Source: Trametes villosa (taxonomy: Eukaryota; Basidiomycota; Agaricomycetes; Polyporales; Polyporaceae). Taken from it: a DNA stretch of 64,000 bases. A model generated the notes under the pieces. The model did no database searches. It saw only the letters and a list, made by a program, of their open reading frames with translations, and had not been told where the DNA came from. The position numbers were made by a program, and so were the translations under genes. Each line of letters starts with the position of its first letter. The first letter of the stretch is position 1. This document shows, piece by piece, positions 11,194 through 36,131 of this stretch. The DNA lies in contig PUDQ02000003.1 of the NCBI GenBank assembly GCA_002964805.2, forward strand, positions 1,178,001 through 1,242,000, given 5' to 3'.

Positions 11194-13696
11194 ATGGCGT
11201 TCCTCCTGTACCCCGATAATGTCTCAATCACCGAAAACATCACTGAATATGCCGAAGATACATCCATAGCTCCCGCGGAAAGCACAGAGAATGATGATCC
11301 CGAGCAACAAGAGGAAACCGCGCGCTCCCCGACACCCGCCACACCCGGCCCCCCACCGGCGATTGAGTACCTCGACCGCCTCCTTAACGCCGACACGCAG
11401 GTCTGGCAATACTGGACTTCTCGCCAGTATCCGCCTGCGGAGCTGTACGATCCATCTGTCCCAGTGCAGAGGAACGCGGACGATGGGGATTTCGGCCCAT
11501 ACTTCTCCGTCGTGCGCCGGTTCCCCGACCCCAGGCGCGATCCGGGAGGCCAGATCACGTTCACCATTACCCTCGTCAGCTCAGCTCTTCGGGAGGTGTG
11601 CAAGGATGTCATGGGCTCGCTTTCCGGGGTTTCTTGGGAGGATCGCGTGGAGGTAAGTGGTGGCGCTGCTTCCTTCATTGAGTCGATGCTCACGAAATAC
11701 AACACCCCCAGCTCGACCCGAAGATGGTGATCACCTTCTTCCCCCGCCTCGAGGAACGCGTGAATATGCTGGCCACTGCAGAGACAGAGCCAGAGCGCCG
11801 CGCCCATGCAGCTCTCTCCTACCTCGTGTGGTACATCCGCCACGACTACGGCTCGACGCTCGCCCGGATCGCCACCCTAAAAGAGCGCGACGAGATTACC
11901 TTCGATCTCGCGTACGCAATCCTCGTGCCCGGGTGCATCGTTCTCGGTCGCTGTCCGCGCACTGGGGAGTGGCGTACGCTCCGGCTGACGTCGCGTCGGA
12001 GGAAGACATCCCCGTATGATGGTACTGAGTACTACGAGATCATCGGTGTGGGCCTAGAGGCCGCCAATCTCCCGGAGGATTCTAGTACGAGCCATCAAGA
12101 CGAGGACCAAGGCTCCTCCGAGTCATGCTCAGAATCAGGATCATCGACGCCACCGCTCCCGCAATCGCAGGCTGCTGCCTTTGGGTTGCGAACCGTCAGC
12201 TACAGGATAGCGGAATTCAAGGGGGTGCAGAAGATCTGCGCGTTGGAGGCTTACCCGCTGGACTACCATCCAGACACCGCCAGCTTGAGGGCGTCGTTGA
12301 TTGCGCGGGGCCGGAAGTGGGCGTCGTACTATGGCATGCACCACGTTCAGTACGAGGGCCTTGCCATTCATATGGATACGGAACAAGGATCATACAATGC
12401 TCAACCGGTGAAGTACAACGTAAGCAGGGTTCCTATTCCTCGTCGATGCGTGAGTCTGACCGCCACCGCTACTACTAGGTGACGTCCCGTATCGTCATCG
12501 ACCGCAGTAAGTCCAAGTCTCCTACGACTATGGGCGTATTTGAAACTCACATAAAGCCGCCTCCGCACTGCAGAGACTATGTTGCGTGTCGGGGATGACG
12601 CCGACTCGATCCCAGAACCACAGGCACTCCCGGACCGTCCGAATGCCGCGTCCTTGACGGACGACGACGTGCTTCTGGCCTCCCCAATCTTATACGGCTT
12701 CAGCTTATCCGACAAGCTATGGAGTATGCTCCGACACGCTCCTGCCACGCACTCTCCCTTGCTGACATACCACTCCAGTGTTATTCAACGTGCGGAAGGT
12801 CAAGCCAATCGTTTGGAGCGACGAGGTCTTCGAGAAGCTCGCTCTACCTGCCGGCCGCAAGGAGCTCTTGGAGGGCCTCGTCAAGGCGCATGCCATCAGC
12901 CCCGCTGTCAAGTTCGACGACATCATGCGCGGCAAGGGTCAAGGTCTGGTCATCAACCTGTTCGGGCCTCCGGGGGTCGGCAAGACGCTGTCTGCCGAAG
13001 CCACCAGCGAGTATCTCCGGCGGCCGCTGTACGTTGTGAGCAGCGGGGACCTCGGCACGAACCCTGCTGCACTGGAAGAGAACCTTCGGATGGCGTTCGA
13101 GCTGGCGACAGAGTGGAATGCTATCCTGCTCATTGATGAGGTACGCCGCGCGGTATCTCCTTATGTGCTCACAACGATCCTACCGCTGACGGTATTCCTA
13201 TCAGGCCGACGTGTTCCTCGAACAACGCTCTCTGCATGACATGAACCGCAACGCGATGGTGGCAGTATTGTAAGCCTCGTCGAGTCTCTTTGACACCATT
13301 CTCCCCTCTGATAATCTCCCTAGCTTGCGACACATGGAGTACTACCGCGGCATCCTCTTCCTCACCACGAACCGCATTACCACCTTCGACGAGGCCTTCC
13401 TCTCCCGCATCCACGTCGCGCTCCACTTCGGCGAGCTCTCCGTAGACGCCAAGTTCCTCATCTGGCGCACATTCCTGCAGAAGGCCGGCGTCGAAGTGGG
13501 CGAGGGCGAGTTCACCAACGAGGCAGTTCGGGAATTGGCAGCCCGCGAGACGAACGGCCGGCAGATCAAGAATGTGTGTGCCACTGCGGCGGCGATGGCG
13601 CGCGGCCGCAGTGAGCAGTTCACGTATGCGCATGTGGTCACCGCGCTGGATGCAATGGAGGAATTCCTTGCCCAGTTTGCTGCCATGCGCGCATGA
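11194..13696 (+). CDS. AAA+ ATPase with DUF7025-like N-terminal region, paralogue A
   Basis: Exons 11194-11652, 11712-12419, 12479-12506, 12574-12723, 12779-13140, 13205-13269 and 13324-13696 join in phase to 714 aa. The N-terminal half (about residues 60-410) is the DUF7025-type region: FSVVRRFP, the block after the first intron (GSTLARIATLKERDEITFDL), EFKGVQKICALEAYPLDYHP and YGMHHVQYEG. The linker ends SPILYGFSLSDKLW. The AAA core has Walker A GPPGVGKT, Walker B ILLIDEADVF (split by an intron after DE in A, B and D), sensor FLTTNRITTFDEAFLSRIH and a C-terminal lid. Family members are widespread in fungi and mostly uncharacterised; ATP-driven protein remodelling is inferred from the fold. 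It is the first of four paralogues in 20 kb. Confidence 0.92.
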
Positions 13697-14609: not shown

Positions 14610-17069
14610 ATGTCGAAACTCGCGGGATACCTTCACCATCTCTTCAGATCATCTCGCCTTCGACCCTATGAGAAGTCAGAAAATACTGTCGGCAAGGGAT
14701 CGCAGTCCACCAACGACACTACGTCCGCCTCTTCGCCCTCTGTGCCTACCGACCAGCTCACCGGCGTCAAGTATGTCGACCACGTCTACAACGTGGCGTC
14801 CAATACCTGGGAGTACGTGGACACGACCTCGGAACTGATTGCAGAGGCCGCCACACCGTTTGGAGCAGCGGGTGGGTCGGGAGACTGGAGTGACTACTGC
14901 TTTGTCGTCCTACGAAAATTCCCCGCGCTCCAAACCCCCGGGAGTGGCGTAGTGTTTAGGATTGTGATCCAGAGCGCACACCTCTTGCAGGCCTGCAAAG
15001 ACGTTATGGGGGAGGTCTCTGGCATCTCTTGGACGGCTGATCCGCTTGAGGTACCTACACGATCTCCCTCGAGCTGATGGTCGCTTTGACTCATACAACG
15101 TTTATAGCTGAACCCCGAGCTGCTGCTAACGTTTCTACCCCAACTCGTGGAGCACGAAGCGAAGTTGCGCGCGGGCCCTGCTACGCAGGAGAGCTCGAGC
15201 ACCATTTCCGCTCTTGGCACGCTCCTAGCTTATCTGCGCAAGAATTACCCGAGTACCATCGCCCAAATCAACAACCTCACCGCCCACGGAGAGATCACCT
15301 TCGCCCTGCTGTACGCCATCCTCATTCCGCGAACCGTTCTGATCACAGGCTGTGCGAAGACCGGGGAACCGCGGGCCTTTAAGCTCCTGAGCGCGGTGAA
15401 GGAGCCCTCGCATGATCACCGTGGCGAACACTATGCTATATGCTGCCAAAGTCTCGAAAGCGCGTCGGCGGAGGAAGACGGCGCGGATAATGACCGCGAT
15501 GCTGCGGGCTTCGGGTTGGATCAATCCTGGCTCGAAATACAGGAGTTCAAGGGCACAAGGAAGATCAGTTCTCTCTCAGCATTTCCCCTTCAATACCACC
15601 CAGACGCAGAGAACATAAAGAAAAAGTTGATCCAACGCGGACGCAAATGGGCTGTACTCAACGGGATACATCACGTCTCTTACAAGGGGCTGGGGACGGA
15701 TGACATGGACAACAAATACAGCGTGAGCCGTCCCCTTACAGTACGATTCTCAGTGATCCTATTTTTTCACGGCAGGTAAACGCACGCATCATGATCGACC
15801 GAGGTGAGGACAGTACTCACCTTATGTCGCCTGCCTATGTCCATGACGCGCGGCGTGACAGACAACTTCATGAGAATCAACCCCAACGTCGGAGTACCCA
15901 GGCCAGCTCCAGATGTGCGATGTGTGCAGTTCGCGCTCGACGGTACGTGTGTCTCGGTGTCCGAGCGTACGCCCTCTCGTCTGACAGCCAGCACGTAGAA
16001 TATAGGAACGCGGAAGAAGGGGCGCACAAGTCGCGCCTCATTCCGAGCGACGAGATGCTCCTCTTAGCCTCGCCCATCCTCTACGGCTTCAGTCTGTCGG
16101 ACAAAATTTGGCGTGCGTGCCGCTCCCTCATTGTCTCGTGTGCCGCCTCTGACGTTACGTTCTCGCGTTAGTGCGGTTCAACGTGGAGAAGGTCACGTCC
16201 ATCGAGTGGAACAAGGGGACGTTCGAAGGACTCGTTCTTCCAGCGGATCGTAAGACGCTCCTCCGCTCGCTCGTCGAGGCGCACGACGCCGACTCCAGCT
16301 TCGACGACTTTGTGCGCGGCAAGGGCCAAGGGCTCGTCATCAACCTTTTCGGCCCGCCCGGCGTGGGCAAGACGCTCTCCGCAGAGGCGACGAGCGAGCA
16401 CATCCGGCGCCCACTGTATGTCGTTGGGAGTGGTGATCTTGGGACGAGCCCCTCCGAGCTGGACAAGACACTCGGAGAGGTGTTTGATGTCGCGGCGTGC
16501 TGGAACGCGATCGTACTCATTGACGAGGTGAATTGCACAAAACCATTCACCGAGCGCCGATGCTGACAGAGTCCGACAGGCGGATGTGTTTCTGGAGCAG
16601 CGATCAGTACAGGATCTGCACCGCAACGCCATGGTCGCTGTCTTGTATGTCTCCCCGTCCCAACCTTCCGTCCAGAGTTGCCGATACTGAGCCTTCCTAC
16701 AGCCTGCGCCACATCGAGTACTACCGCGGGATCCTCTTCCTGACAACGAACCGCATCACGACCTTCGACGAGGCCTTCCTTTCGCGCATCCACGTCGCGC
16801 TGCACTACACCGAGCTCAGCACCGCGACCAAGGTCCAGATCTGGCGCGCGTTCCTCAAGAAGGCCGGCGCGGCGCAAGGGGGGTTCTCGGACGAGCTCGT
16901 GCTGAAGCTCGCCGAGCGCGACGTGAACGGGCGCCAGATCAAGAACGCGTGCCGGACGGCGACGTCGCTGGCAAGGAGCCGGGGCGTGGAGATGCAGTAT
17001 GGGCACCTGGTCGAGGCGTTGGACGCGATGCAGGAGTTCGTGGCGCAGTTCGCGGCTATGCGTGGGTGA
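14610..17069 (+). CDS. AAA+ ATPase with DUF7025-like N-terminal region, paralogue B
   Basis: Exons 14610-15050, 15108-15722, 15776-15803, 15862-15942, 15999-16112, 16172-16527, 16580-16644 and 16703-17069 join in phase to 688 aa. The layout matches A: DYCFVVLRKFP, then YPSTIAQINNLTAHGEITFA, EFKGTRKISSLSAFPLQYHP, SPILYGFSLSDKIW, Walker A GPPGVGKT, Walker B IVLIDEADVF, LTTNRITTFDEAFLSRIH and a lid ending VAQFAAMRG. The exons of 28, 356 and 65 bases have exactly the same lengths in paralogue D, and the 28- and 65-base exons also match A. All catalytic motifs are intact, so it should be an active ATPase. Its 3' end converges with GWT1, with only about 90 bases between the stop codons. Confidence 0.92.
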
Positions 17070-17158
17070 ATGGTCGTTGTATGCGCAGGATGTACGATGA
17101 GAGGTGGATGAAGTTGACTATATGCGGGGATGTGTACAATGTATATCCAAGCAGAGCT

Positions 17159-19122
17159 TCAGAAACGCCAGAGTCGCCTGTGTCTGCATGACCAAGCGAT
17201 TGCGGAGAGGCCAAAGCCGTAGAGGGAGAGGACGAGCATCGCCGACCAGTCCGACATGTACATCGTCGGCATCGACAGATTGATGAGACCCGTCGTGACA
17301 TTTGCCTGTGTATATGCGGTCAGCAATCATCTCGCGTGGGTCAGACACTGAACGCACTAGCAGGAACAGGACGAGCCCGTTCTTGTTCACAGCTTCCAGA
17401 AGTGCGGGCGCGCTGCCGCCGCTCACGTCGCGAGACCGCAAGTGGCGCGTTGCCTTCAGCGTGTCCGGATCGGGATGGACCTTTAGCTTCGACGTCGGCG
17501 AGTAGACCGACTTCGAGAGGGGCGACGGGAAGAAGAACAGGTCGAGCACCAGGTAACCTAGGAGGAACGTGGTGTTGTATGCGGCGACCCAGATGATGTA
17601 CTGCAGGTTCACGAGGCGGCGCGAGACGCCTCCGCCAACTCCGAAGAGCTTCAGAAGCCCTAGAGTAACCCACCATAAAACGGCGTATCCGCAAAGCTCC
17701 GTCGCGGTCTTGTCGTTCTCGCGCCTCTGTTCATGCTCGTGCGTGTACGTGCGAGGAGAGGAGGCGCCAGACGTGTCGTCGTCTGAGTCGGAATCACTGC
17801 TTGGGGTACGCGGTCGTCTTGGCGCTGTATCGGGACGTGCAAGCTGCTGCTGGCGACGTCGGAAGTAGGAAGGAGTAGGTGCAAGCACCAGCGTGCCTGT
17901 GGAAACGCCCAGGAGATGAACGGCCAGGTAGCCTAAAATGCGCGGTTAGAAGGATACAACTCGGAGTCTTCGCAGTAGTACCTACCCGTCAGCGAGATGA
18001 TACCTTCCTTGTTGGCAGAGATGACGCCAACGCGAGGTGCATTAAGAACAAAATCTTGCATGCCGCCTAGGGAGAGGGCGAGCTGGTGGGCTACGATCTA
18101 TTAGCGAGGCAAGCGTAGCTAGCTCAAGATGGCGCTTACATATAGCTATCACCACGCTGAGAAATGAGATGGGCACATGCACCATCACCGGGTGGAGCAG
18201 GACTTGCAGTACCGGGATAAACGCAAGTGTTATGAAGAAATTCCAATGTACGCCGTATTCTGTGACGTGTTCCTGAGCCATATTGATGACGTACCCCAAA
18301 GATCTCAGGACGGACTACTCACTGGATATTCTGTGCCTTTCACTGAAATGGTCCGTAGCAGGCCCAACAACAGAACCGGCGAGCACTTCCGGATGACGGT
18401 AGACAGTTTTGGCAAAAGGGGTTGGGTGAGGTACTCAGGGTTCTTCACCAGGGGTATGGCCGAAACAACTCCTTGGGAAAACACGAAAGAACCAACACCT
18501 AGGTCCATCTACCGTCTCTTAGAGTATGTGCGGAAAAGAAAAAAACCGCACTTACCATAGATACTCCAAACGTCTCACACTTCGCCAGGAATCGTGGAAA
18601 CACGGGGAAGTCGACTGCAAGAATGCAGATGAAGGTCAAGAGCAACATATGAGAGCGGTAGGTCGTCAAAGCGGGGAGCGGAGGGATTGATAGACTGCCG
18701 TTTGAATGGCCGTCTCTTGACACATTCGAGTCGCGCGAAGATGCTCTGCTATGCGTCAGGGTTGAAGGAAGGTATGTCCCAGATTCTCGCCTCGGGAGGA
18801 GCAGCAGGAGCACGGTTGGAACCAGCAAGGCTAGACACAGAATCCCAGGGGAGTTTGCAGATACAGTGACTGACGCGATGAGGGGCATAACAAGAAACAC
18901 GACCTCCCCGACGAACTGGAGAGGTCGGTTAGGCGGAAGTCGCGTCCTCAACGCCGAGTGCAGCGCAATGGATATCTGACCGCCGTAAGTCATAGCCAAC
19001 GAGGCGTGTAACAGAGAGCTACTCACCAACGACGCCAGCGAGACCATGTTAATATGACCAATCGTCGATCCCGTCATCCCCGACACGAATGCCTCCTTCG
19101 AGGCCTTGTAGTCATCGTTCAT
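17159..19122 (-). CDS. GWT1: GPI-anchored wall transfer protein, inositol acyltransferase (PIG-W family)
   Basis: Multi-pass ER enzyme that acylates the inositol of GlcN-PI, an early step of GPI-anchor synthesis. The N-terminus ([20 protein letters not shown]) matches the family start. Later blocks are [30 protein letters not shown] split over an intron, [57 protein letters not shown] and a C-terminal segment ending RRLWRF. Several TM helices are evident. At least five introns of about 50 bases are present; the one near 19026-18976 can also be read through, and I favour splicing. A Ser/Asp-rich insert (about 17750-17850) follows a loop, as is common in fungal members. The gene lies on the opposite strand inside the AAA cluster and makes the anchors needed by proteins such as the thaumatin-like protein at 25.4 kb. 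Confidence 0.93.
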
Positions 19123-19709
19123 CTCGACTTGCGGGTACGCCTGGCCAAGCTGTTACACAGTCTCTACGTCGAGATCGACGTCCAGGTGAAGCCCACAGAG
19201 GTAGAGAAGACGATTCGATCAAATAGCTCGGGCTTGCTGAGTTGGGGAGACTCGGGAGAGCACTGGGAGAGCGCAAGACGCGGTTGCGGACAAGATGTGG
19301 TTGTCGACAACGCGAGCCGCGGCGAGCTCGATCCGACGCATGGGCGATCCTCGTTTGCCCACGAACCACCGCCTGAAACTCACTCGCTCGCTCCTCTCAT
19401 TCAACGCTCATCCATCTACCACTGTCTTGGTCTACGAGCTCTGTCTTTTGAACTCCCTTGCGTGTTTTTGTGGCTTATCCGACATTTGCTGCTATCACCA
19501 TGGACAAGCTATGGACGCATTTCCTCTGATGGCACCGTCAAGCGAGAGTGGGAGTCTGATATCCCATAACGCACCGATAGCCTCTTCAATCATGCCCTGC
19601 CTATCATGTGCCCTGCTGCTGCGAGATATCTGGGGGCACGAGACGATAAATACTCGTGAGCTGTATCGTTGGGACTGGTCGCCCTCCCTTGACCCTCTGT
19701 CATCCTGCC
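19123..19709. promoter_or_regulatory. Divergent promoter region, GWT1 and APC permease
   Basis: About 0.59 kb between two head-to-head starts, so it must contain both promoters. Open frames here are short and unconvincing. No individual element can be named with confidence. Confidence 0.55.
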
Positions 19710-21880
19710 ATGAAGAGCCCGGTCGCAACAGACGTCGAAAGCGTTGCTAGAGACTCCCATCTTTCTCCGGAGGTCCAAGATGCTGCTGCTTCAAACTCTG
19801 ACCAACGGCTGCGGGAGCTGGGCTACAAGAGCGAGTTTCGACGGGACATGTCTCTCTTTGGCGTACTTGGAATCTCGTTCTGCGCCATTGGTATCCTCAC
19901 GGGCATGAGTAGTGCCTTCCAGACTGGACTGTTTTCGGGAGGACCTCTGGGGCTGTTCTGGGGTTGGAATGTACGTCTATACAGAATCGGTTTACGGGGG
20001 TAACACATCTGAATGAACTTGCCGAAGATATGCAGCTTTTTCATGCTGCTGATCGCTCTGTCTCTCGCGGAAATCTGTAGTGCCTAGTGAGTTCATTTCC
20101 TGTGGCAGAGCTCTCCTTTGCCAACCTATGCCAGTCCTACCATGGGCGGTTTGTATTTCTGGGTCTGCAAGATGAAACCCGAGGTGCCGATGCTTGGCTG
20201 TGAGTACCGTCGAGACCCACCGTCCTGAAGCCACGCGCTGAGCGAACCACAGTTTGTGTAGGTGAACTGCCGAGCGTGGCGTTTCACGTATCTTAACGCT
20301 ACTTCCAGACGGGTTGGATCTACAGCATCGCCATGACGTTCACTGGCACGTCGGGAAACCTGAGGTATGTTCACGAGCATTGCAGGAACCCCTTTTCTTA
20401 ACCTCGTCGCGTTCTGGCAGTGTTGCGCTATACCTAGCGTCCTTAGCAGAGGTTGGCCAAGGCCGGACGCTCACCAGGGTTGAGGTGACCGCTATCGCCT
20501 GGGGCGTCAACATTGCGTCGGGTATCATCAACACCATCGGTACGAAGGCCATAGGTGGTATGAGCACTTTCAACCTCTGGTGGACACTCGGCGGAACGTT
20601 GGTGCTAGTTATTACATTGCTTGTGAAGGCACCTGTCAAGGTAGGCTGCACGGTGTTACACAATATTCCCCTTTGTCGCCGATGCGGAACTCACGGGCGA
20701 ACATCTACAGAACAGCGCAGCGTTTGTGTTCACGGACTACGAGGAGTGAGTATAAGTCGGCAAGTCATATTTCGCTTACTTACCGGTATTCAGCTTTACA
20801 GGCTGGCAGAGTCGCGGCTTTGTGGTGCTTCTTGGGTTCCTCCAGGTATGGTAGTTCTCCCGTTGTCTCATGTGGCTGACTGAACCTGCCTCAGGCCGTG
20901 TACACACTCGAAGGTTGCGAAACCGCCGCGCAAGTGGCCGAGGAAGCCAAACGAGCGGAGATCCTGGCCCCTCTCGCAGTGGTCGGGAGCATCGTCGGCT
21001 CCTGGTTCATCGGTCTCGCGTACATGCTCGCCCTTCTCTTCTCCGTGCAGAGCATCGCAAGCGTGCAGGCAACGTCCTTCGCCATCCCCATCGCGCAGCT
21101 GTACTACGACGCCGTCGGTCAGCGACTCACGCTGATGTGTCTAACGGTGGTTGCCCTCGCGCAGTTTATGGCGGCCGTGACAGCGTTCACAGCGAGCTCG
21201 CGGCTGTTCTACGCGCTCGCGAGGGATAACGCGTTCCCGATGAAGGGGCGATATATGGCGCTCAACCGATACCAAGCGCCGTATTGGGGTGTATGGACGT
21301 CGGCACTCGTCGGGTGTATTATCTCGTGCGCATACATCGGCTCTGCGGTGGCGGTACGTGCTTCTAGGGCCCTTCACTCCCCCGACGCAATCACTAAACG
21401 CGTCTGTGCAGTTCAATGCGATCTTGTCCTCTGCTGCGATCGCGGTAATGCTGAGCTACCTTCAGCCAATTATCATTCGTGTGTTCTGGCCGAGTACTTC
21501 GTCCGTGATCACCTCCGATAATGCTGCCGTCGTCTATCTGACCTGCCGATTCTCAGCTTGCCAGATCGTGGTCCGTTCTCCCTCGGACGTTGGTCCTGGG
21601 TTGTGAACTTCGCGAGCTTCCTGGTCCGTACCGCTCGCCTTCTCCCGTGGTCTCAGCTCACCCGATGTTCCGCCAGTTCACCGTATTCATCTGCGTTCTT
21701 TTCATCCTGCCTACCGCCCACCCTACAGATGCGCTGAACATGAACTACGCCATCGTCGCCATCGGCACCGTCATGCTCCTCGTCGCGGCCTGCTGGGCGT
21801 TCTGGGGTCGTTTCCACTTCGAAGGGCCGGTCCAAACCGCGGCGGAGGAGGCTGTGGAAGATGAGAAGGTCGGATTGTAA
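19710..21880 (+). CDS. APC-superfamily amino acid/choline permease (GABA/choline type)
   Basis: Plasma-membrane transporter of the yeast UGA4/HNM1 type (TC 2.A.3.4). After a cytosolic tail comes LGYKSEFRRDMSLFGVLG, the hallmark entry to TM1, then GMSSAFQTGLFSGGPLGLFW. Later exons carry SLAEICSAYPTMGGLYFW, FVTGWIYSIAMTFTGTSGN, the FLQAVYTLEGCETAAQVAEE loop and ALARDNAFPMKG. The final exon holds the last TM pair and an acidic tail ending EDEKVGL. About ten short introns are read, for example after 19970 and around 21510-21576 (phase 2). About twelve TM segments are expected and most can be seen. Substrate cannot be decided from sequence; choline, GABA and basic amino acids are all known in the family. 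No break was found. Confidence 0.88.
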
Positions 21881-22628
21881 GTGCCACTCGGGCCCCGCGA
21901 CTCAATGCAAGCTGGTATCCGTGTCTCGTAAACGAGCCCGCGCGGCCGCAAGAACTGGCCTTCATTTCCGGTCGTGTCGTGGTTCATGCGAAGAGCTGCT
22001 CCTCCCAATGGGGCATTTACGTGTCGGTGGCGCACCAGGTATACCTGCTGATGGTCTCTCCGCTGGCGCATCGGAGGGCTGTGGTAGGCCGCGACTTCGA
22101 CGCAACTTCTTTGTGGGTCCAAGCGCCCAGATACTCGTTCGCAGAAGCTCAAGCTATGCATCTTATCGCCTGATCCCGGTCTTCGTGAGGTCGGCTCCTC
22201 TGCTCTTTCATCGATCATAGCTAACTTTGGTTTTTTGTAGCGCCGTGTCTCACGGGAAGTATACAGAACTCGCAGATTTTGCCGCTTTCGTGTGCGACAG
22301 TCCTCGGTTTTCGAAGCGCAGCCCTGGATGTCTGCACCACGATGCATTGCTCAAATCCGTCCGGCCGGAGGAGTACGTTCCATCAAACTCCTTTGCATTC
22401 GAGGTGCGAGCATAAGGCTCGCTGCACGCCCTGATCATCCTTGATATCTGCGGTCTACGTTCCCGTCGGCTCACACTTGACAGATATACCCATAGGTTGA
22501 CTCCAGCAAACAGGATCTGCTTTCGCGGGCGCGTCACGAGGTAGGCGCGATCTGGGAGGCATATAACTCACCGATCCCTCTCGTGTTCTCCATCGGACCC
22601 TCCCCTGAGATCAGCTCGAATCCCCACA
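21881..22628. other. Intergenic region, promoter of paralogue C
   Basis: About 0.75 kb, mostly 3' flank of the permease and 5' flank of paralogue C. A TATA-like CATATAAC lies at 22560-22567, about 62 bases before the ATG. No other gene seen. Confidence 0.5.
22560..22567 (+). promoter_or_regulatory. TATA-like box of paralogue C
   Basis: CATATAAC about 62 bases before ATG 22629, the same placement as in paralogues B and D. It suggests the chimeric gene kept the promoter of its AAA ancestor. Confidence 0.45.
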
Positions 22629-25009
22629 ATGCGTCGCTTCCTTTCGCGCTCCCGCTCTGCACCCCTTCCTTCCAACTGGGAGACCCCGACCCCTACCTGT
22701 CCTGCAGATGTCCCTCCTCGATACAGCGGCCATGCTCAGCCCATCGCTGCCGAGTGCACGATGGACAGAAAGCGCGCCGCGTCGAAGTACATGCGTAACC
22801 CTCCGATCTCGCGATCTCGTTCGGAATGCACGCACGCCGATGGCTTGCACTCTCTGTCCTCGCGCGGCTGGGAACACGCCGATCACGACCCCAAGGTTAG
22901 TCGTTGCGTGTCGCCGATCGACGAGGAGCGTCCCTATCAGCGGGCCGGTTCGCGTCCGCTCCCCTACTTCTCTGTCGTCGACGATATGTCGAGCGAGTCG
23001 CCCGAGCGATGCGACTCTGCAACTCGCATCGTCATTCACGACCCTGCGCTTTTGACCGTCTGCGGCGAGTTTCTCCGGCTACCTGCGCAACCGTCTGACC
23101 CCATGGAGCCGCTGGAGGTAAGTTTATCTGCCTTTCATGTCGCTGCCGTATCTCATGCTTGCTCGCAGTTGGAAGTCGGCCTCCTGCTGGCGTCCCTCCC
23201 CCGCCTCCAGCAGCACCTCGACACACTAAAGACAACCACCACATACCCCGAGCACAACCCCACCTTCAAAGCCGTACAGGCTCTCACCAGCTACCTCCGC
23301 CGCGAGCACGCCGCCACCCTCTCCAAAATCGCCGACCTCACCGCAAGAGGCGAGATCACCTTCGACACGCTCTTCTTTCTCTTCGCTCCAGGGACCGTCG
23401 TAATCGCGAAGTGCGCAGACACGGGCGCATGGCGCGCGTACGGGTTGCGATCCGCGACGAAGATCCGCCAGCCGTGGAGGAGCGTGTACGACCTCGTCTG
23501 CGAGAGCGTGGACGTGGCAGACGAGGGCGCACACTGCGTGTGCTGCAGCGTGCGGCGCTCCGCCAGCCCCACCTCTGGCTGCTCCTCACGCGCGCGCACT
23601 GCACCTGAGAGAGTGCCATCCCACTCAACCAGGTTGCGGCGCGTGCAGACCCAGTTGCTCGTTCCTTCCTTCAAGGGTGTGGTGAAGATCTGCTCGCTGG
23701 ACGTGTACCCGCTCACGTACCACCCCGACGCTACGGGGTTGGAGGCGTCGCTCGTCGACCGCGGCAAACGGTGGCTTGCGTTGCAGGGCATCCACCATGT
23801 CTGGTACGAGGGCCCTGCGACGTGTAAACTCACCTTCGGGGGTACCTCGACGACGTTGACATACGATGTGAGTTGTTGGTTCTTCGTTCGAAGTGCGCGG
23901 GCTGACCGGGGGTGAAGGTCGAGTCCTTCATTCTGCTCGATCGAGGTGGGCTTTACCGCATCATCACCAGCTTTCGAGAACGCTGACTCGCAAATCAGGG
24001 AGCTTCATACGGCTCAGTCCCCCTTCAGAAACGTCGGACAGCGACGTAAGCGGTGCAGAGACTGTGCAAGCAACGACGACGAGCAGTAGCGCAGAGAACC
24101 TGCTGCTCGCACCCCCAATCCTGTACGGGTTCAGCGTGCTGGACCAGGAATGGCGTGCGTCCCTCGACTTCCGCCCACCCGATCTCGCTGCTAACACGTG
24201 TTACATAGTGATGTTCAACGTTGAACACGTTCAGGAAATCCACGAGCTCGGCGCCATACCACCTCTGGCGGGTGATGTCTCCCATGGGAGTGCCAAGACC
24301 GGGCACGAGACAAGTCCCTCGAAGAGTGTGGCGATTGAGGGTGCGAGTGCACCCGCGGGGCCACCACCGCTGGCCGCGGACGCTGCTTCAACTGCCCACT
24401 GCGTGGATGTATCCGCGGTCACCACCGAAACAGATGCGGTTGCGGTCGTGCAGCGCATCTGCAAAGATGAAGTCTCTGCATTTGCGGCAGGCTTCGAAGA
24501 ACGAGTAATGGTACGTGTTCCATCGCCGGACGCTGCGCCGTAGTTTGCGTACTTAGCATGCGCCCCGTAGCATGTATTGGCTGAACTACACACCAGGTAC
24601 TCGGCGGAGAGCGCGATGCAGAAACAGACGATGGTGCGCCAAACGTCCTCCGAATCTCTCTGCGCTTTCGGAGGTATCTAACGCGCGCTTCAGCGTTGGT
24701 TGGTTATCGCCACTAGCGTCCTGGTTTTCCCCACATTGGTGTTTCTCCTGTATCGACTCCTGACTCCCCCAGCGCGTACGTCGCGCTGGTCTGGCCCTAT
24801 GCACTTTACTATCCCAATCCTGTCACCATTCTCCTCCGTGGTACGTACACCTCATCTACGATCAGTGCCCTCAATCCCTGAACTTACCCAACACCTTGCA
24901 GGTCGAACACGAGAGCTCGTCGTTCGGCTTCCGTCAGGTAGCAGCATTCCTCACCTCCGCCGCTTTCTTTTTCTTGTTCTGGATACGATTCTGTGTACGG
25001 CGAAAATGA
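22629..25009 (+). CDS. Paralogue C: DUF7025-like half fused to a two-TM tail, AAA core absent
   Basis: Exons 22629-23117, 23169-23867, 23918-23945, 23999-24154, 24209-24510, 24571-24633, 24694-24840 and 24902-25009 join in phase to an uninterrupted 663 aa product. It starts MRRFLSRSRS, identical to paralogue D. It keeps the N-terminal region (AATLSKIADLTARGEITFDT, FKGVVKICSLDVYPLTYHP), the 28-base exon and PPILYGFSVLDQEW. The next exon opens MFNVEHVQEI as in its relatives, then diverges within ten residues into an Ala/Ser-rich stretch. No Walker A, Walker B, sensor or lid follows. Instead come a short coiled segment (LAELHTRYSAESAMQKQ), a TM helix, SRWSGPMHFTIPILSPFSSV, VEHESS, a second TM helix and a basic end RRK. 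This tail matches protein E. It is probably a membrane-anchored, ATPase-less derivative rather than a pseudogene, because every junction is in frame. Confidence 0.85.
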
Positions 25010-25374
25010 AGCAACCTCCCCTTTCCTCTCGCACCACATGTCTTCATCCAGCTCGGCGTATGTATGATTTCCGCCCCACACGTGGCTTGGACGCCGAGGA
25101 CGAGCGAGCCTCGAGGCTGTGCCGCCTCGAGGCGTGCCAAATTTGGGCGGCCACTCCAAGAAAGGCTCCAAGAAAGGCGTGGCTTCGTGGCGCCCAGCCG
25201 GCTGCGCACGACGCAGAGGGTCTGAACTCTCCAGTCGGAGCCCAACGTGCACCGACCTCCTTTGTCAGAGGCGTACATATGAATCCTCCTCGTGAATCGC
25301 TTCCCTGCTGACTTGACCTCGAGCCATCACGACCTCCCGCGATCTGTAGCTACACCGCGTACGCCTCGAGCTCC
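25010..25374. other. Intergenic region before the thaumatin-like gene
   Basis: About 0.37 kb. It contains a short near-duplicated stretch (tandem CCAAGAAAGGC around 25155-25175) and no convincing coding frame. Confidence 0.4.
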
Positions 25375-27011
25375 ATGATGACGATGACGACACTGCGCCT
25401 TGTATCGGTGGTATTCGAAGTGTGGATGCTTGCGCGTATGCCTGCGCTCGCGCATGCACGTACGTTCACTGTAACGAATCAATGCCCCTTCACGATATGG
25501 TACGTCCGCTCCTTTCAACGTATACGACCTCACTTATCGAGATGCTCCACAGGCCTGCTGTACGTTGTGGCACCAACACGGTGTTCCTAGTGCCATTCAC
25601 ATGTCTTTATAGATGTTCACCGACCTCAGCGCCGGTACTGCCGTGCCCAGCTTCCCGACAGGGTACGTCGACTACTCTGGATTGCTAGAATTGAGCGCTG
25701 AATGTGCTGCTAGATGGGAAGCCCCACCGTCGAACTCGGTGACGTTCGCGGTGCCCGACAACTGGAAAGCTGGCAGGATATGGGTAAGCCCTGTCAGCGA
25801 AGCGCGTGGTTCATAGAGTAGCTGCTGATCTCTCGACAGGGAAGGAGAGACTGCGACTTCACGATCACGACCGGACCTACGTGTCTCGATGGCTGGTGTA
25901 ACGGCGGGTTGCTTTGTGATCCTGCGACAGGCACGGTATGCGCTGAATGCCGTCTGAGTACACGAAACTTTGTGCATTCTGACATATAATTCAACAGGGT
26001 GTCCCTCCCGCGAGTGTTGCAGAGTGGACGCTCCAAGGCGACGGAAACCGCGACTTCTATGACGGTATGGACGTGGTGTCTGTTTACTACCTTCAAGCAC
26101 GCTGACATCGTGTGCTAGTATCACTAGTCGATGGATACAACCTCCCTATGGCGATTACGAACTCAGCGAACTGCCCGATCGCCGACTGTCCTGTCGACCT
26201 TGGGCCAAACTGTAAGTAGTCTTCGCGTCACTCTGTCGAACATAGCTGACATCACATACGCACATGTAGGTCCCGCTCCCATTCAGGGTCCCTTTGACTC
26301 TACCGGTTTCCCTGTAGGTTGCAAGAGCGCTTGTGCTGCGAATCTGGACGGAAACCCAAGTGCGTCCTCCTCCACCATTCTTCTTCGTACGAATGAACTG
26401 ATCTTGCCTGCGAACAGTCGACTCCGCCAACTGCTGCTCCGGCAGTCATAGCACCGCCGCAACCTGCCCTTCCTCAGGAGTGCAATACTACGACTACTTT
26501 AGTATGTCCCACCCGTTCCTGGTGCGACGTACGCACTTTGCTGAGGTCCTTCGCAGAGGGAAACTGCCCGAACGCGTATGCCTACGCGTACGACGAGTCG
26601 AGCAACACTGCACTCTGGACTTGCGACTCTGGGCTGAACGCAGACTACACCCTGACATTCTGCCCGTACGTCTGGTAGACATCTCGTTTGGTATCCGAGC
26701 ATATGTGGCTGAAAATCTTCCTCAGAACCGTCAACTCTGCAAACACGGTCTCGGGCGCCACGTCGGGATCAGTTGCCAGTTCCCCGGCGTCGACAGACGC
26801 ACCGCCTGTATCCCAGCCTCTTTCGAGTCTGTCGTCCTCAGTTACAGCGCCAGGGTCATCCGGGGCAGCACCTTCCCAGGCTACAGGGCTATCTGGCAGC
26901 ACCGCAAATATCACTGGGGCGGCTCGCCCTAGTAGCAGCGCGCCGAGAGCTGTCCCTTGCGCTTTTTGGCTGCTGTCGATCGCGATTGCTCTCTGTGTAT
27001 CAGTAGCCTAG
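25375..27011 (+). CDS. Thaumatin-like protein, secreted and probably GPI-anchored
   Basis: Signal peptide ends ALAHA, then RTFTVTNQCPFTIW, the classic thaumatin start. Exons read: 25375-25499, a 7-base exon 25553-25559, 25613-25662, 25714-25783, 25840-25935, 25998-26064, 26119-26211 and further ones to the stop. They give WPAMFTDLSAG, the CDFTITTGPTCLDGWCNGGL block, VSLVDGYNLPMAITNS, CPAPIQGPFDSTGFPVGCKS and FKGNCPNAYAYAYDESSNTA, with many paired cysteines. The C-terminal third is Ser/Thr/Pro-rich and ends in a hydrophobic segment (FWLLSIAIALCVSVA), as in GPI-anchored wall proteins. Basidiomycete homologues act on or bind wall beta-glucans (GH152-like). Later exon borders near 26460-26690 are less certain than the early ones. 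Confidence 0.88.
25553..25559 (+). other. Seven-base microexon of the thaumatin-like gene
   Basis: GCCTGCT, flanked by CAG upstream and GTACGT downstream. Only its inclusion joins TG (end of exon 1) to ATGTTC (exon 3) in frame and restores the family sequence TIWPAMFTDL. Skipping it creates an immediate TGA. Confidence 0.75.
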
Positions 27012-27926
27012 CGCCGCGCAACTCTACATGCCATCATTGCGGACTCATACGAGTACCAGCTATACCCAGGTCTGCCTGCCAGTACTTCTACTCGTCTATA
27101 TGATCACAACTCACTCGCTCACGCACTCACTCCAGGACATGGGCGCCTAGGCGCTTGTACAATTGTACCTCCACAGATACATTCCCACGATAGGCTTGTC
27201 CTCTACCACCACCTTGTACCTAGTGCCCATCTGCTACCCTGTGGTCTACGTAAATTCAGAGTCGCTGAACTGCAGCTATCATACTATTTGCGCCGCCAAA
27301 ACATGCCATGACAGGAAGGAGGGGAGACTTGGCAATGTCCACGGGTACCCAGGCTACCACAAGCGCTCCGTTGTGGTCACGGAACTGGGCGCAGTCCGGC
27401 CCTGGGGTGGACCCGCGTTCATCTTCAAAGCTTCAAGCCCCACTGTCTGAGATGTGAGTGATATTGCCCCGGAGTCAGCTCCCGCAGGCATCTCCATATA
27501 GCCTGAGCTTGTCCGTACAGGAGGTGTCTGTGCAAATCCTTGGCACGGGCATGTATGAGCGATATCTAACCGCCCGCAGAGATGAGCGTCCCAGGAAATC
27601 GAAGCACAGGCCTGGCCACTGGCGGAGTTATTCCTGCACGGCTCTGGCCTCATGTACCTCCACGCGACCCCATGACGGTACTGTACCGCCTCGCGACGAC
27701 AGGACAACGTTGCGTGGGCGGGGTTCACCGCCTCCCGATCATGTCGGGACCGGTGCTCGGAGGCGCCGGGAGCGACACGTCCTGACTGCAGAGCCTCCAC
27801 TTTAACTGCACCTGGAGTCACAACCCGGAAGCGCATCCTCACGACGAGGCCGGGAAGATATAAGTATCTCCTGGGAGCTTGTTTGAAGATCACTCGAACA
27901 CCCGCCCTCTCGTCGATCGCCCCATC
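27012..27926. other. Intergenic region, promoter of paralogue D
   Basis: About 0.9 kb with no gene-like frame; overlapping short frames on both strands lack family signals. A TATA-like GATATAAG lies at 27857-27864. Confidence 0.5.
27857..27864 (+). promoter_or_regulatory. TATA-like box of paralogue D
   Basis: GATATAAG about 63-70 bases before ATG 27927, matching the placement in paralogues B and C. Confidence 0.45.
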
Positions 27927-30633
27927 ATGCGCCGCTTTCTCTCTCGCTCGCGTTCCACCTCAGGCTCCCATGCAGCCGATGGCGACTCAGAGAAGTGGCC
28001 ACACGCGTCGTCGTCCAGCACGCACTCCACGATCCACGCGCGCGGCGAGCGCGTAATTCACGAAGAGGTCGAGGACGACGAGCAGTCCACCGCGGCGCTC
28101 ATGTCGCCCATCGCGGACGGGCCGCCCGCGCCCGCGAACTTCAAGGTCAAGCGCGTGGACAACTACTGGAGCAACTGGTCGAAGGCGTGGAAGTACCGCA
28201 ACACCGGCTCGAACTTCAACCCCGAGGCGCTGCTCACGGTGGGCAACGGCTCGCGCGACGGCAACGACCCGTGGCAAAACTACTGCTTCGTCGTCGTGCG
28301 GAAGCTGCCGAAGCCGACTGACGATGGGAACGCCGAGCCGGTGTACCAGGTCGTGGTGAAGAGCCCTTACCTGCTAAAGGCGTGCAAGGACGTCATCAAA
28401 AAGGTTCAAGGAATCTCTTGGACAGCTGAGCCGTTGGAGGTACGGTCGTCTTTCTCACAATACGCGCTCGTGACGCTAACCAGAAGTGTCGCAGCTGGAT
28501 CCGCACTTGCTCCTCGCCTTCCTCCCCCAGTTCGAGCAATACCGCGATGGTCTCCGCACCAAGAGCCAGCGCACCACAGAGGAGAGCACCGTGCTCAAGA
28601 CCGTCGAGGTGCTCATCACCTACCTGCGCACCGACTACAAGGGCACGATCGCAAAGGTCGCCAACCTCACTGCGCACGGCGAGATCACCTTCGACACGCT
28701 CTTCGCCATCTTCGTCCCGCGCACCATCGTCGTCACCGAGTGCCCCACCACCGGCGAGCCGCGCGCCTTCAACATCGTCTCCGCCACGAAGGTGAAGACC
28801 ATGACTACGGAAGTGTACGACCTCATCTGCGAGAGCGTCGACGCGTTCGAGGAGGCGAGCGAGGGCGGCGCGTACGGCGCGGCGAGCTTCAACCCGACCG
28901 CCTCGCCGAACGGGTATTATCAGGACTACGTCGCGCCGCCGCCGGGGATGACGCAGGAGGAGGTGGACATGCAGAAGGCGTCCGGGGCTGCGTTCGGGCG
29001 CGTGCAGAGCCGCATCTTCGTGCCGCACTTCAAGGGCACGGTCAAGATCAGCTCGCTCGACGTGTACCCGCTCAACTACCACCCCGACGCGGGCCGGCTC
29101 GAGATGTCGCTCGTCGCGCGGGGGAAGAAGTGGCTCGAGCTCAGGGGCGTCCACCATATGCAGTATGACGGGCCGGCGGGGTACACGCTTTCGAATGGTT
29201 CGGCGAAGACGACCATCAAGTACAGAGTAAGTCTTCCGGACGGCGAGGCTCCGGATGCCCACTGACGCGCATGTGTTGCAGGTGAAGTCCCGGATTATGG
29301 TCGACAGAGGTGTGTCTCGAGCCTACTCGCAGTGACCACTGCTAAAACGTTGTCTAGGCAACTTCCGTCGTCTCAACCCCAACTATGAGATGCCGGTGGT
29401 CAAGGCGGACAACTCGCCGCCACCCACCGGTCCCGACCAGAACGGGAACTACCCTCCGACGCCGCCACCGCAGCCCTACAACCCGAGTAAGTCACTCCCA
29501 CTAGCAGCGGCTGAACACTCAGCTTACAGCCGCCCGATGCATAGACAGCAACGTCCCAATGTTCCAGGTCCGCGCCCGCGCGACGCGTGACGTCGTCGAG
29601 CTCACCGAGGACGAGCTCATGCTCACACCGCCGGTAGTGTACGGCTTCAGCCTGACCGACAAAACATGGCGTACGTCCCACTTCCCGCTGCCTCGTCACC
29701 CCTCTTCTAACCCACCTGCGCCCGCAGTCGAGTTCAACATCCAGCACGTGCAGCCGATCGTGTGGAACGAAGAGGCGTTCGCGAACCTCGTGCTGCCCGC
29801 GGACCGCAAGATCCTGCTGCAGTCGCTCGTCGAGGCGCACAACGGCGACGTCAGCTTCGACGACTTTGTGCACAACAAGGGCCGTGGGCTCGTCATCAAC
29901 CTCTTCGGCCCGCCTGGCGTGGGGAAGACGCTCTCCGCGGAGGCGACGAGCGAGCACGTGCGGCAGCCGCTGTACGTCGTCGGCGCGGGCGACCTGGGGA
30001 CGAGCGCGAGCGACCTGGACCAGGCGCTGAACCGGGTGTTTGATATCGCGACGAGCTGGAAGGCGATCGTGCTCATTGACGAGGTTTGTGTCATCTCGGT
30101 GGGTGCTTGGTGCAGGTATTGACGTTCCCATCCAGGCGGACGTGTTCCTCGAACAGAGGTCGTTGCACGACATGGAACGAAACGCTATGGTCGCAGTCTT
30201 GTAAGTCTTCCCGCCCGATCCCTGTCTAAGTCGCGCGCTCACGGCGCTCGACAGCCTGCGTCACGTCGAGTACTACCACGGCATCCTCTTCCTAACAACA
30301 AACCGCGTGAAAGCCTTCGACGACGCCTTCCTCTCGCGCATCCACGTCGGCCTGCACTTCCACGACCTCACGCGCGACGCGCGCCGGCAGGTGTGGGCGG
30401 CATTCCTCTCGCGCGTCGGCGTGTCTCCCGCGGAGTTCGGCGAGGAGAACCTGGACCGGCTTGCGGCGCGCGACGTGAACGGGCGGCAGATCAAGAACAC
30501 GGTGCGCACGGCGAGCTCGCTCGCGGCGAAGAAGGGCGTGCGGGTGTGCTACAAGGACCTGCTGGAGACCCTGGATGCCGTCGATGAGTTTACGGCGGAG
30601 TTCAAGGCGGTTAGGCGGGGACTTGATATGTAG
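27927..30633 (+). CDS. AAA+ ATPase with DUF7025-like N-terminal region, paralogue D
   Basis: Exons 27927-28439, 28495-29226, 29282-29309, 29358-29486, 29545-29670, 29728-30083, 30136-30200 and 30255-30633 join in phase to 775 aa, the longest copy. The N-terminus MRRFLSRSRS is shared with C. The N-terminal region carries NYWSNWSKAWKYRN, NYCFVVVRKLPKP, TIAKVANLTAHGEITFDTLF, a Gly/Tyr-rich insert, FKGTVKISSLDVYPLNYHP and HHMQYDG. A Pro-rich linker (PPTGPDQNGNYPPTPPPQP) precedes VVYGFSLTDKTW. The AAA core is complete: GPPGVGKT, IVLIDEADVF, FLTTNRVKAFDDAFLSRIH and RDVNGRQIKNT in the lid. It should be an active ATPase. Its first exon is the closest local relative of the chimeric gene C, so C probably arose from a D-like copy. 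Confidence 0.93.
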
Positions 30634-31423: not shown

Positions 31424-34400
31424 ATGTCTCGCGGCAGGCCCTTGAAGCCCAGCGAGCCACCCCTGCATAGACCGCCCGTTAGCGGAGCACATGGTACGTA
31501 GAGACGACCTTGGTCAAGCTCGCTCCATATTAACCCCGTAGATTGTAGAGGCCGGCTCGGCCTTTCGCAGGGCTGGTTCCAATATTGTAGGCGGAGGCTA
31601 CCGTGGACCAGCCGGCGGTCTCGGTATTGGCCCTACCGGCGCGGCTGAGATGCTGAAGGGTGAAATCCCAGGCAATCTCTATGGACTCGAAAATCGCCCG
31701 TTGGTTGACCGCATCAAGGACAAACTCGGGCAAGGGAAACTCCAGTCGTGGCGCAAGGGTCTGGATAAACCGCAAAGTGACAAGAACTACTCCAGATGGA
31801 AGAAGATATTGCCGCTCGGTGAGCATCACATCTCCTATCTCGTTACCTTCCTATTTTGTACGCTGAGCGTCGCCCTGTTCTTTCTGCTCGCCACCCATAG
31901 GCCCCAAGGCGCCTGAGAAAGGTGCTGCAGAAGAGCAGCTTCGTCAGCTACCGAAACTTGACAAAGTCACGTCCAAACAGCTTCACAGTAATGCGCGCGT
32001 TTTTCGGATTGTTAAAGGCGCCCAGCAGCGCTTCAACAACGGTCGCATTGCCAGCGAGATCCGCAGAGGTACGACTGGATCATCAACGGCAGTGATTACT
32101 GTGCGCTGACTTTCCTTGAGACTACGACAGCGTGAAGCCGGACGTCGGGCAATATCTCGAAGACCATCGCCTCAAGTCTGTAAAAGTACAGACGAGCCAG
32201 CTTGGGGCAAAGCTCCAGAAGCATGGAACGACTGTTGGTGCGGCCATTAACAAGTCGCTCTCCGACCTCTTCCTCTCCGGCCGCGCGATCAACCCGCACA
32301 TGAAGCTCGCTGTCCTCGGTCCCGCCCCGGTTTCGCAAAGTTCGGAGGATGTCTACGAGCTGGTTCTCGCGACCTGCGCCGAGGACGGCATCGACGTAAC
32401 TGCTGAGGACTTGGCCAAATCTCGTCCCTACCTCGACGTCATCGTTCAGGGCGCCGCAGCATGGTGCATGGCAACTGAGGAGGCGTTCTGGATCAAGTGA
32501 GTACTCCCCTCCCTTTGCGTGATTGCTGTTCACAGACGTCCGCAGCTACCAGCCCCAGGTGGTCACACAGGGCCCAGACTTAGACGGGGAGGGCGACGGA
32601 GATCTGACGAGGAAAGCTCTCGCATTTCAGATTTCCGTCATCGACGAGTACCAGCGTATGGCAGCGCCCGTGCAGTACTTGAACCCAACCGATCCGCCCT
32701 GGATCTGGCAGCTACCTGGCGAGAAGGAAGAGCTCATAAGGCAGATAGCCGAGACTTACGTCGAAAAAGTGCGTCCAGTGAATCGTGGGGCCAGTCGCGT
32801 GTTTGTAGCTGCCGCTCACGCATTGGCCGTTCCAGGGACATGCGGCTGTCTACGACTTCATGGCAACGTACCGCTATCGCGGAGAACACGTCTTACCGCG
32901 CTTCGTCGCCTGCGACGTCCTCATCGACGCCCTGACGCTCATCTGGGAGTCCCTCATCTCCCAAGATATTGCGACGGGCACTGCTTCCAGCCTTTCCTTG
33001 GTCGTTAGCCCTCCCGAAAACATCTTCCCCACGCTCGATGCGCAGCCAACCGTCGCGGCCACGGCGATCGCGATCGAAACTTTGACAGCAACCTCCGACA
33101 ACAAAGTGAGTGACTTGACACACCGGCTGAAACATGCAGATGCGTCTGCGCCTACTCGACGCTAACGGGGAAACTATTAGGACGCCAAGTTTCTCAAAGC
33201 AGGCGCATCGACATCCGACTCCGAGGGCGAGATGCTCGTCATACTCAACGCCGCTATGTCTGCTGTCGCTGTCTTGGCGTTCCTTGGGGGTCCTCCTGGC
33301 ATCGTGGTCGCCTCGGGGATCATCCTCATTCAGGGTCTACTGCCGCTAGGGGCTGGGCAGAAGGACACTCTACAGACGCTGCTCGACGGAATTGAACACG
33401 TCCGGGTGGAGAATGCGATCGACGTGCAACTCAACAAGGTCAGGTCGTTCGCCGACTGGGTCCTCGACCAGAAGGACATCCTGGAGGGTGCCAGCGTTGA
33501 TCTAGAGGCGTTCAAGAGTGTGAGCATGCCTATCCTGCACAGCACGATTAGTAGCGAATGACTGAAGGATCGTCTTCCTAGCGCGCTCTCGACAATCTGT
33601 CGGACGAGACTGGCACGCACAGTGATACGCTGTACAACACCGTGGAGAACATCGAGGAGAACATCGCGTGGGACATGCCCAAGGCCCGCGTCGCCGTCCT
33701 GCTCTCTCTTACGCACCTCTTCGTCGCCTACAGCCTCAAGTGCCGCACCTACGCCTCGATGGCGGTCGCCGCGAAGGACGCAGGGGACCGCAAGGCGTTC
33801 CACAGCTACGCCGCGTCGTTCCGCGCGGAGCTCAAGGTCATGCAGCGCCAGCTCGAGCGCCGATCTGCGCGCGTGAAAGAGGTCATCGAGGAGCTGAAGA
33901 AATGGCGTCGCGAAAGAGTGCGCTGGATAGGTGCCCAGATGAAGCCGTTTCCCACGACGTATGATTTGATTGTGCCAGGGCCGGGCTCCAGTTAGTATTT
34001 CGTTCTTGCGAGCCGTGGTGTTCGCAGGTGCTCATCCTCAAATTGTTTAGTCTCTTGGATCGACGAGTACACGAACGTTCGCCGTTCAGTTGACTACCAC
34101 CCAGGCGGCAACCTGTGGTATGTGGCAACCCGCTTCAAATGGTCCAACGAGGAAGATATCGCCAAGCAACAACGAGAGGCGTTCAATACCTACAAGGCAG
34201 AGCTCGAAGAACACATCGAGAGGACCTTCCGGAACGACCTGAAGATCGTCGAGAAGTGGGCCGAAATCAGCAAGGACGTGACGCGCCTGTTGACCCCCGG
34301 GACGCCCATCTTCGCCCCCTCCGTAGCGGTGCGTGTGGAGATTTGTTGCCATAAACTTGTGCTGACTAGTAGTCAATGTAGCGCTACGACCCCCTTCCTT

Positions 34401-34723
34401 CCCCTCACCCGCTGCTCACCGGAGCGAATTCCGTCGCCTACTCCTACACTATCGGGACGGATGAAGCCGGCGTATCCAAACCCAGTCCTTGGACGGAGTG
34501 GCTGCCTCTCCAGACGGTCGCCGGAGTCCTGCAGGCTCCCGTACTGACCATCCGGGATAGCAACTACTCCTCGGAGACCATACGTACCGTCTACCACAGA
34601 ATCATGAAAGAAGGGCAGACTGCCGAAGAGGCGGAGGGGAGCACGTCGATTGCGGAGGTGTTCAGGGCGATCGGGGCGGTGGCATGGGTTGATTCGCAGC
34701 CGCAAATGCCCGCGGTTCGCTGA
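31424..34723 (+). CDS. Large unrecognised helical protein with one hydrophobic hairpin-like segment
   Basis: Start CACAATGTCT at 31424; first exons 31424-31493 and 31549-31818, then about seven more to TGA 34721-34723, giving an estimated 900-950 aa. I do not recognise a family with confidence. The N-terminus is basic and Gly-rich without a signal peptide. The middle holds charged helices and one long apolar stretch (SAVAVLAFLGGPPGIVVASG, near 33255-33320). Amphipathic, heptad-like helices follow (LQTLLDGIEHVRVENAIDVQ, ALDNLSDETGT, KVMQRQLERRSARVKEVIEE). A helical bundle around a hydrophobic hairpin is reminiscent of alpha-helical pore-forming folds such as the delta-endotoxin N-terminal domain, but that is only a shape analogy with no diagnostic motif seen. 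Some acceptor sites, for example CTTGAG near 32123, are inferred from phase. Confidence 0.6.
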
Positions 34724-35240: not shown

Positions 35241-36131
35241 ATGGCGCTAGCCCGACGCATGTCCGAGAATGACCTCGCCCCCGAGCCCGTAGGTCGTGCC
35301 AGTGTCGAAAGAACTCCTCCGCGAACACCTGGGGCAACCTCCAACTCAGACCGACGCGTTGTCGCCTGGGGAGCCATAGTGGAAGAAGATGCCTCTGCGT
35401 CCGGATCCTCCGCAAGGAGCCTCGTGTCATACCGAAGCGATGAACATGCTGTGGCACGGCCGCGGTCTCCTTCAGGCCAATCCACGTCGTTCTTTCAGCA
35501 ATACATTGGCCACTCGGCCTGGGTGGTCACACACCCCGTGTCTGCGATGGAGCACTACTGGGCTATGCGCGCGACGCGTGCCGAGGCCCTGCTCGAAGCG
35601 CACACCTCTTTCCGACGGGAGGTCAGGACGCTCGAGGAAAGACGAGCTGTGCGCCTTTCACTCACTCGGCGTTCACGCTGACGCTGACAATCTATCAACA
35701 GAGAGACCTCGCGGACCTCAACGCGAGGCACTCACGAGAGTATGGACGGCAGCAGCGTATGGTGGTACGTCGACTCAAACCCCTCTTCACCTACAACTCT
35801 GACGCTACTTTGCACTAGTGGGTCTTGCTGGGGACCGTGCTCGCCGCGCTCTCGGGGATGCTCTACTTCGTCTACAGCCATTCTCCTCCGGCCGCCGCCT
35901 CACGCTGGCTCGGGCCACTGCACTTCACCATTCCGATACTGTCACCGTTTGCCTCAGTGGTGAGTGGAACTTGTGCTCTGTCGTGGCGGTTAAGATTCTG
36001 ACGCTGTACGCGTCGATGTGCAGATCGAGCACGAGACCTCGGTTGTCAACGTGCAACTCGTCGCGATACTTCTACTGGCCGCAGCTAGCTTCGCGTTCCT
36101 ATGGTTCCGCTGCGGCGCGCGCCGAACATGA
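35241..36131 (+). CDS. Protein E: small coiled-coil protein with two C-terminal TM helices
   Basis: Exons 35241-35648, 35702-35764, 35819-35959 and 36024-36131 (408, 63, 141 and 108 bases) join in phase to 239 aa. The N-terminal 100 residues are polar and Ser/Arg-rich, then HYWAMRATRAEALLEAHTSF and a charged coiled segment (LEERRARDLADLNARHSREY). A TM helix (WVLLGTVLAALSGMLYFVY), the conserved loop SRWLGPLHFTIPILSPFASV with IEHETS, a second TM helix (QLVAILLLAAASFAFLWF) and a basic end RRT follow. Both TM helices and the loop match the tail of paralogue C, with equal exon lengths (63 and 108) and the same intron phases. A hairpin with both ends cytosolic is likely. I know no named family. Confidence 0.8.

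Follow-up and report, generated by a model that had tools for sequence, protein, structure and literature searches.

A Trametes villosa gene that probably fuses a motor-free DUF7025 region to a predicted two-helix membrane tail

Introduction

The N-terminal parts of VCP-like ATPases and of Msp1 place these enzymes at their clients or at membranes, and in AAA rings it is generally the AAA core that mediates assembly. Msp1 itself is described as a membrane-anchored motor (PMC12793716). The gene that we describe here, gene C of the basidiomycete Trametes villosa, differs from Msp1/ATAD1 in that Msp1 is anchored together with its motor, whereas the product of C is predicted to be anchored without one. 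A second parallel comes from the trypanosomatid deoxyhypusine synthase, for which a catalytically dead paralogue is reported to act as a partner (PMC3663545). As in such dead-paralogue partners, C is an inactive paralogue kept beside active ones; unlike them, it has another sequence in place of an absent catalytic domain.

The described proteins closest to C are those that combine DUF7025 with an AAA domain (PF22942 plus PF00004). C has the DUF7025 region, a 28-nt exon and the pre-AAA linker in common with them, but it lacks the AAA core, the Walker motifs and an AAA_lid_13 match, and carries a different linker and two hydrophobic segments instead. The term DUF7025 was absent from the open-access literature that we searched, and the listings and abstract openings covered by our search held nothing on this architecture. 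When D, an intact DUF7025-AAA neighbor of C, was compared by sequence with the PDB, the nearest entry was a VCP-like ATPase (2.2e-10), and Msp1 scored 2.5e-8; both matched via the AAA part and were among the best 60 of 172 matches; for C, no solved chain gave a significant match (best E 0.96).

Results

Gene C has eight exons and an open frame

We analyzed a window of 64,000 nucleotides, positions 1,178,001 to 1,242,000 of contig PUDQ02000003.1 (C3 herein), in which four genes with a DUF7025 region, A to D, lie on the forward strand, followed by a smaller gene, E (Table 1). The eight exons of C add up to 1992 nt, or 663 codons plus a stop, with GT-AG borders at seven of seven introns and no inner stop in the spliced frame. 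This is the same exon model that had been drawn up in the original prediction from the letters of the DNA and a list of its open reading frames. That prediction also held that C shares its start, MRRFLSRSRS, the DUF7025-like region, the 28-nt exon and the pre-AAA linker with its neighbors. The last three parts are indeed held in common. The start is shared with D, whose first 10 residues match those of C, and is absent from A and B; further into exon 1, residues ∼112 to 163 of C align with A, B and D. The match of C to the DUF7025 profile (PF22942) reached 64.8 bits against a curated cut-off of 27. AlphaFold2 modeling of the DUF7025 exon 2, done with the four window sequences, returned a pLDDT of 52.5, which is too poor for use.

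Table 1. Positions of gene C, its exons and the related genes within the window
Feature	Position	Strand	Content
Gene A	11194..13696	+	DUF7025 + AAA, 714 aa
Gene B	14610..17069	+	DUF7025 + AAA, 688 aa; exon 4 ends at 15942
Gene C	22629..25009	+	
Gene C exon 1	22629..23117	+	residues 1-163
Gene C exon 2	23169..23867	+	residues 164-396; DUF7025 domain at residues 217-349, E 9.1e-18
Gene C exon 3	23918..23945	+	28-nt exon, common to A, B and D
Gene C exon 4	23999..24154	+	pre-AAA linker, last residues PPILYGFSVLDQEW
Gene C exon 5	24209..24510	+	LMFNVEHVQ, then 92-residue linker
Gene C exon 6	24571..24633	+	63 nt; corresponds by homology to exon 2 of gene E and encodes a charged juxtamembrane segment
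Gene C exon 7	24694..24840	+	first hydrophobic segment; conserved loop RWSGPMHFTIPILSPFSSVV
Gene C exon 8	24902..25009	+	end of the loop, second hydrophobic segment, basic C-terminus (VRRK), stop
Gene D	27927..30633	+	DUF7025 + AAA, 775 aa; exon 2 from 28495
Gene E	35241..36131	+	239-aa standalone protein with two hydrophobic segments; relative of the C tail
Gene E exons	35241-35648, 35702-35764, 35819-35959, 36024-36131	+	

Homology to the ATPases stops inside exon 5

Residues 1 to 466 of C are homologous to its AAA paralogue D, with the break after HVQ at about nucleotide 24234, where the AAA-gene motif LMFNVEHVQ that opens exon 5 ends. The N-terminal half of C scored 263 bits against D (35% identity over 531 aligned columns), 166 bits against B and 159 bits against A, which makes D the nearest of the three, at identities to the paralogues that are low throughout (31-35%). 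The stretch directly ahead of the break aligned between C and D with a score of 106, compared with a maximum of 45 among shuffled sequences (none of 500 shuffles scored as high). Past the break, the following 92 residues, tested as pieces of 66 and 26, aligned to the AAA core of A, B and D at chance level.

The motor is missing from C by each of the searches used. Pfam gave DUF7025 as the sole match, with neither AAA nor the lid found up to E 0.1, and C contains no Walker A or Walker B motif, both of which are present in A, B and D. Among these paralogues, A and D match DUF7025 and AAA (PF00004) in Pfam, with AAA_lid_13 matched only below its cut-off, and exon 6 of B matches AAA (PF00004). A switch of sequence near 24240, within what should be the first AAA exon, and the absence of the Walker motifs and lid had both been proposed in the original prediction, and both are borne out here. 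We considered that C might be an annotation error with an AAA core left nearby. This was rejected, since tblastn of the AAA parts of A, B and D against 24000-27900 gave a best E of 0.19; across 17070-22600, the best E for an AAA core was 0.033, and both matches are weak.

The tail of C is related to the neighboring gene E

Two hydrophobic stretches of transmembrane length are found in C, at residues 578-606 and 636-661 (Kyte-Doolittle maxima 2.19 and 1.89), which agrees with the two membrane helices first proposed for the tail and predicts membrane insertion. A third stretch, at 225-246, is just over the hydropathy cut (1.52) and lies inside the DUF7025 region. Neither the C tail nor E has a Pfam match up to E 10. 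The tail is 45% identical to E over 110 amino acids (80 bits; 0 of 500 shuffles reached this score), the two hydrophobic segments are kept in E, and the loop between them, RWxGPxHFTIPILSPFxSVxEHE, is nearly identical in the two proteins. The gene structures correspond as well: the terminal three exons are all phase 0 and measure 63/141/108 nt in E and 63/147/108 nt in C. Upstream of these, E carries a 136-residue first exon of its own, and it lacks DUF7025.

When residues 461-663 of C were searched against the full genome (46.7 Mb), 10 pieces matched, all at E 1.2e-4 or better, and these fall in four places: C, E (at ∼35.8 kb in the window) and a second copy of each, described below. With gene E as the query, no further relative was found below E 0.5 (13 of 13 candidates scored).

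The 92-residue linker of exon 5 aligned beyond chance with neither the D-like nor the E-like part. Two candidate sources for it were rejected on chance-level alignments, namely residual AAA sequence, compared with A, B and D, and exon 1 of gene E. Self-comparison of 19000-41000 returned solely the exon 2 matches between C and D and a 62-bp match between the tails of C and E, and so did not support the idea that the flanks of C and E derive from a single duplicated block.

A second, inverted copy of the cluster keeps gene C intact

The cluster is repeated in inverted orientation on the same contig, with C3:1178001-1218002 (window 1-40002) corresponding to C3:1957002-1996726. Where compared, the copies are 87-95% identical in DNA sequence, with small unmatched gaps. 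Pieces taken from 1300 and 1400 kb did not match those compared from 1870 and 1772 kb. The 10 kb around the midpoint of the copies lacked TTAGGG runs and long palindromes and contained only one 192-bp inverted pair (78%). Three RPB2-type genes occur once each in the assembly, hence the assembly seems not to be doubled throughout. The second cluster copy may represent the other haplotype, and hence an allele, or a segmental duplication in inverted orientation.

In the second copy of C (C3:1972160-1974531, minus strand), each of the seven introns retains its GT and AG, the frame has no inner stop, and both hydrophobic segments are kept. This copy differs from C by 206 exon mismatches, and the sole indel between the exons is a 6-nt in-frame deletion in the second copy. 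Exons are 83-97% identical; introns are 77.6% identical overall, with introns 1, 4 and 5 at 90-92%. Divergence within the gene is uneven: intron 7 (24841-24901) is only 51.8% identical between the copies, and the upstream flank is 92.5% identical.

These two copies bear on whether C could be two genes, a truncated DUF7025 gene and a separate E-like gene with two membrane segments that starts within or after exon 5. Such a split would have a precedent in E, which exists as a standalone gene. If intron 5 is retained, each copy runs into a stop shortly past exon 5, at positions that differ between the copies, so that a separate soluble product could result. However, the frame stays open from exon 4 through intron 4 into exon 5, and intron 4 of the second copy likewise contains no stop, so that the DUF7025 part and the linker remain in one frame even when intron 4 is left unspliced. 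Exon 5 itself opens with the motif of the AAA genes, and ahead of hydrophobic segment 1 in-frame ATGs occur only within LMFNVEHV, at the very end of exon 5 and, twice, in exon 6. With every splice site kept in both copies as well, we regard two genes as a very improbable reading, and one fused gene as the preferred one.

Both halves of gene C appear to be constrained

We estimated dN/dS between the two copies by the Nei-Gojobori method and applied Fisher tests to rounded counts. The ratio was 0.21 for exons 2-4 (p 5e-12), 0.15 for exons 6-8, which encode the putative coil and membrane segments (p 4e-9), and 0.39 for exon 1 (p 0.001). For exon 5, the linker, taken alone it was 0.50 (p 0.13), and constraint was not demonstrable. 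Third-position changes across exons 1 to 8 came to 24/54, 46/71, 2/2, 6/12, 11/23, 1/2, 19/24 and 11/18. Because dN/dS is clearly below 1 in both functional halves, the DUF7025 half and the tail are, as judged from this comparison, both under purifying selection.

Over the whole gene, dN/dS was 0.26 for C, compared with 0.18 for A, 0.06 for B and 0.05 for D. C also had the highest dN of the four (0.069, against 0.022, 0.013 and 0.008 for A, B and D). This faster evolution would fit relaxed constraint too, and counts against a vital role for C. It could likewise be read, along with the unclear constraint on exon 5, as a mark of a decaying pseudogene, a by-product of deletion that is still open by chance. 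Against this stand the 206 exon mismatches that brought no frame break or stop, the single indel of 6 nt that stays in frame, and dN/dS values far below 1 in both halves. We consider decay very improbable. Taken together, the exon anatomy, the intact second copy with both halves under apparent purifying selection and the homology of the tail to E uphold the view of C as an intact chimeric gene, put forward in the original prediction; C is most likely one fused gene.

All other DUF7025 loci found retain the motor

A DUF7025 profile search of the genome returned 13 matching pieces that represent six distinct loci (11 of 11 candidates scored). All of those found sit on contig C3, at 1189-1208 kb, 1254 kb and 2137 kb and at their mirrored positions, with a mirrored second copy present for five of the six; for instance, the locus at C3:1254288 pairs with C3:1919691. 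The two loci beyond A to D, at C3:1254 kb and C3:2137 kb, both run into an AAA domain with Walker A. The AAA domain and Walker A are thus kept in five of six distinct loci, and C is the sole motorless one found.

Within this genome, that distribution favors the AAA-bearing form as ancestral and C as the gene that lost its ATPase. The reverse order would make E the derived gene, split from a C-like gene whose architecture is older than the present AAA paralogues. E does sit in the same cluster as C, and the comparison is confined to this one genome, both of which leave room for such an order. The AAA domain in five of six loci speaks against it, as do the N-terminal 10 residues that C has in common with D and the best score, which is also with D. 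We rate this reverse origin as improbable, and derivation of C from D-like and E-like genes as quite probable.

Other genes of the window

Between C and D, at 25312-27010, lies an exon that reads ARTFTVTNQCPFTIWY; taken alone it has no Pfam match up to E 0.1, but its motif looks like that of a thaumatin-like protein. Between D and E, at 33181-34720, there are four apparent exons of a gene with two weak Pfam matches below cut-off. Further on, two adjoining ORFs at 45023-47734 have similar starts (PFHIDTPLLPAECSPVQLSWEGGTPPY and DFDIDTILLPAECSPTQISWEGGTPPY) and no Pfam match above cut-off; they are apparently tandem paralogues.

Discussion

Our analysis describes C as a gene in which a DUF7025 half like that of D continues, through a 92-residue linker, into a tail like that of E. 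We hold this fusion anatomy with high confidence. For its origin, we propose that a D-like DUF7025-AAA gene was duplicated in tandem and that the duplicate lost its AAA core and lid, presumably by deletion. An E-like gene for a membrane hairpin would then have supplied its 3′ end, joined in frame within the former first AAA exon of the duplicate.

The product of C would consist of a soluble, cytosolic DUF7025 domain followed by the linker and then by a hairpin of two helices. Hydropathy and the basic C-terminus suggest that both ends of the hairpin are cytosolic and that the conserved loop lies on the far side of the membrane. Since the hairpin ends are expected to be cytosolic, the DUF7025 domain of C is expected to face the cytosol. 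In the AAA enzymes A, B and D, DUF7025 may serve as the domain that binds clients or partners. C could then display this domain on the membrane where E would reside as well and gather clients or ATPase partners there without ATP hydrolysis. By analogy with the N-terminal parts of known AAA enzymes, we tentatively suggest, as the likeliest of the roles considered, that C is a membrane-anchored DUF7025 adaptor without a motor, a role that we still place somewhat short of probable. The explanation as a whole, a fusion gene of D-like and E-like origin together with a role as membrane adaptor, is the best that we can offer, and we judge it evenly poised between right and wrong.

The original prediction named membrane receptor, tether and dominant-negative partner of A, B and D as roles that C could have through its N-terminal half. 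In this vein, C would co-assemble with A, B or D through that half and block or tether the ring, as a dominant-negative or regulatory subunit. The N-terminal half that C has in common with D (35% over 531 aligned columns) would allow for this. Its identity to the paralogues is nevertheless low (31-35%), and since C is missing the AAA core, by which rings are generally put together, such a role is less likely than that of an adaptor; we consider it unlikely.

If C does act as an anchored adaptor, the cluster might encode a two-part system, with A, B and D as soluble motors and C as a motor-free, anchored DUF7025 receptor. C and E, which have the hairpin and conserved loop in common, may make up a single membrane site for motors or clients, and retention of intron 5 could switch C from a membrane form to a soluble one. 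We regard this extension as doubtful.

Gene fusion by local rearrangement is already known as a kind of event, and C would be a clear case of fusion from two kinds of gene within one local cluster. For the DUF7025 family, a protein that is anchored and has no motor would provide a handle on what the domain binds, apart from ATPase activity, and on where in the cell it does so.
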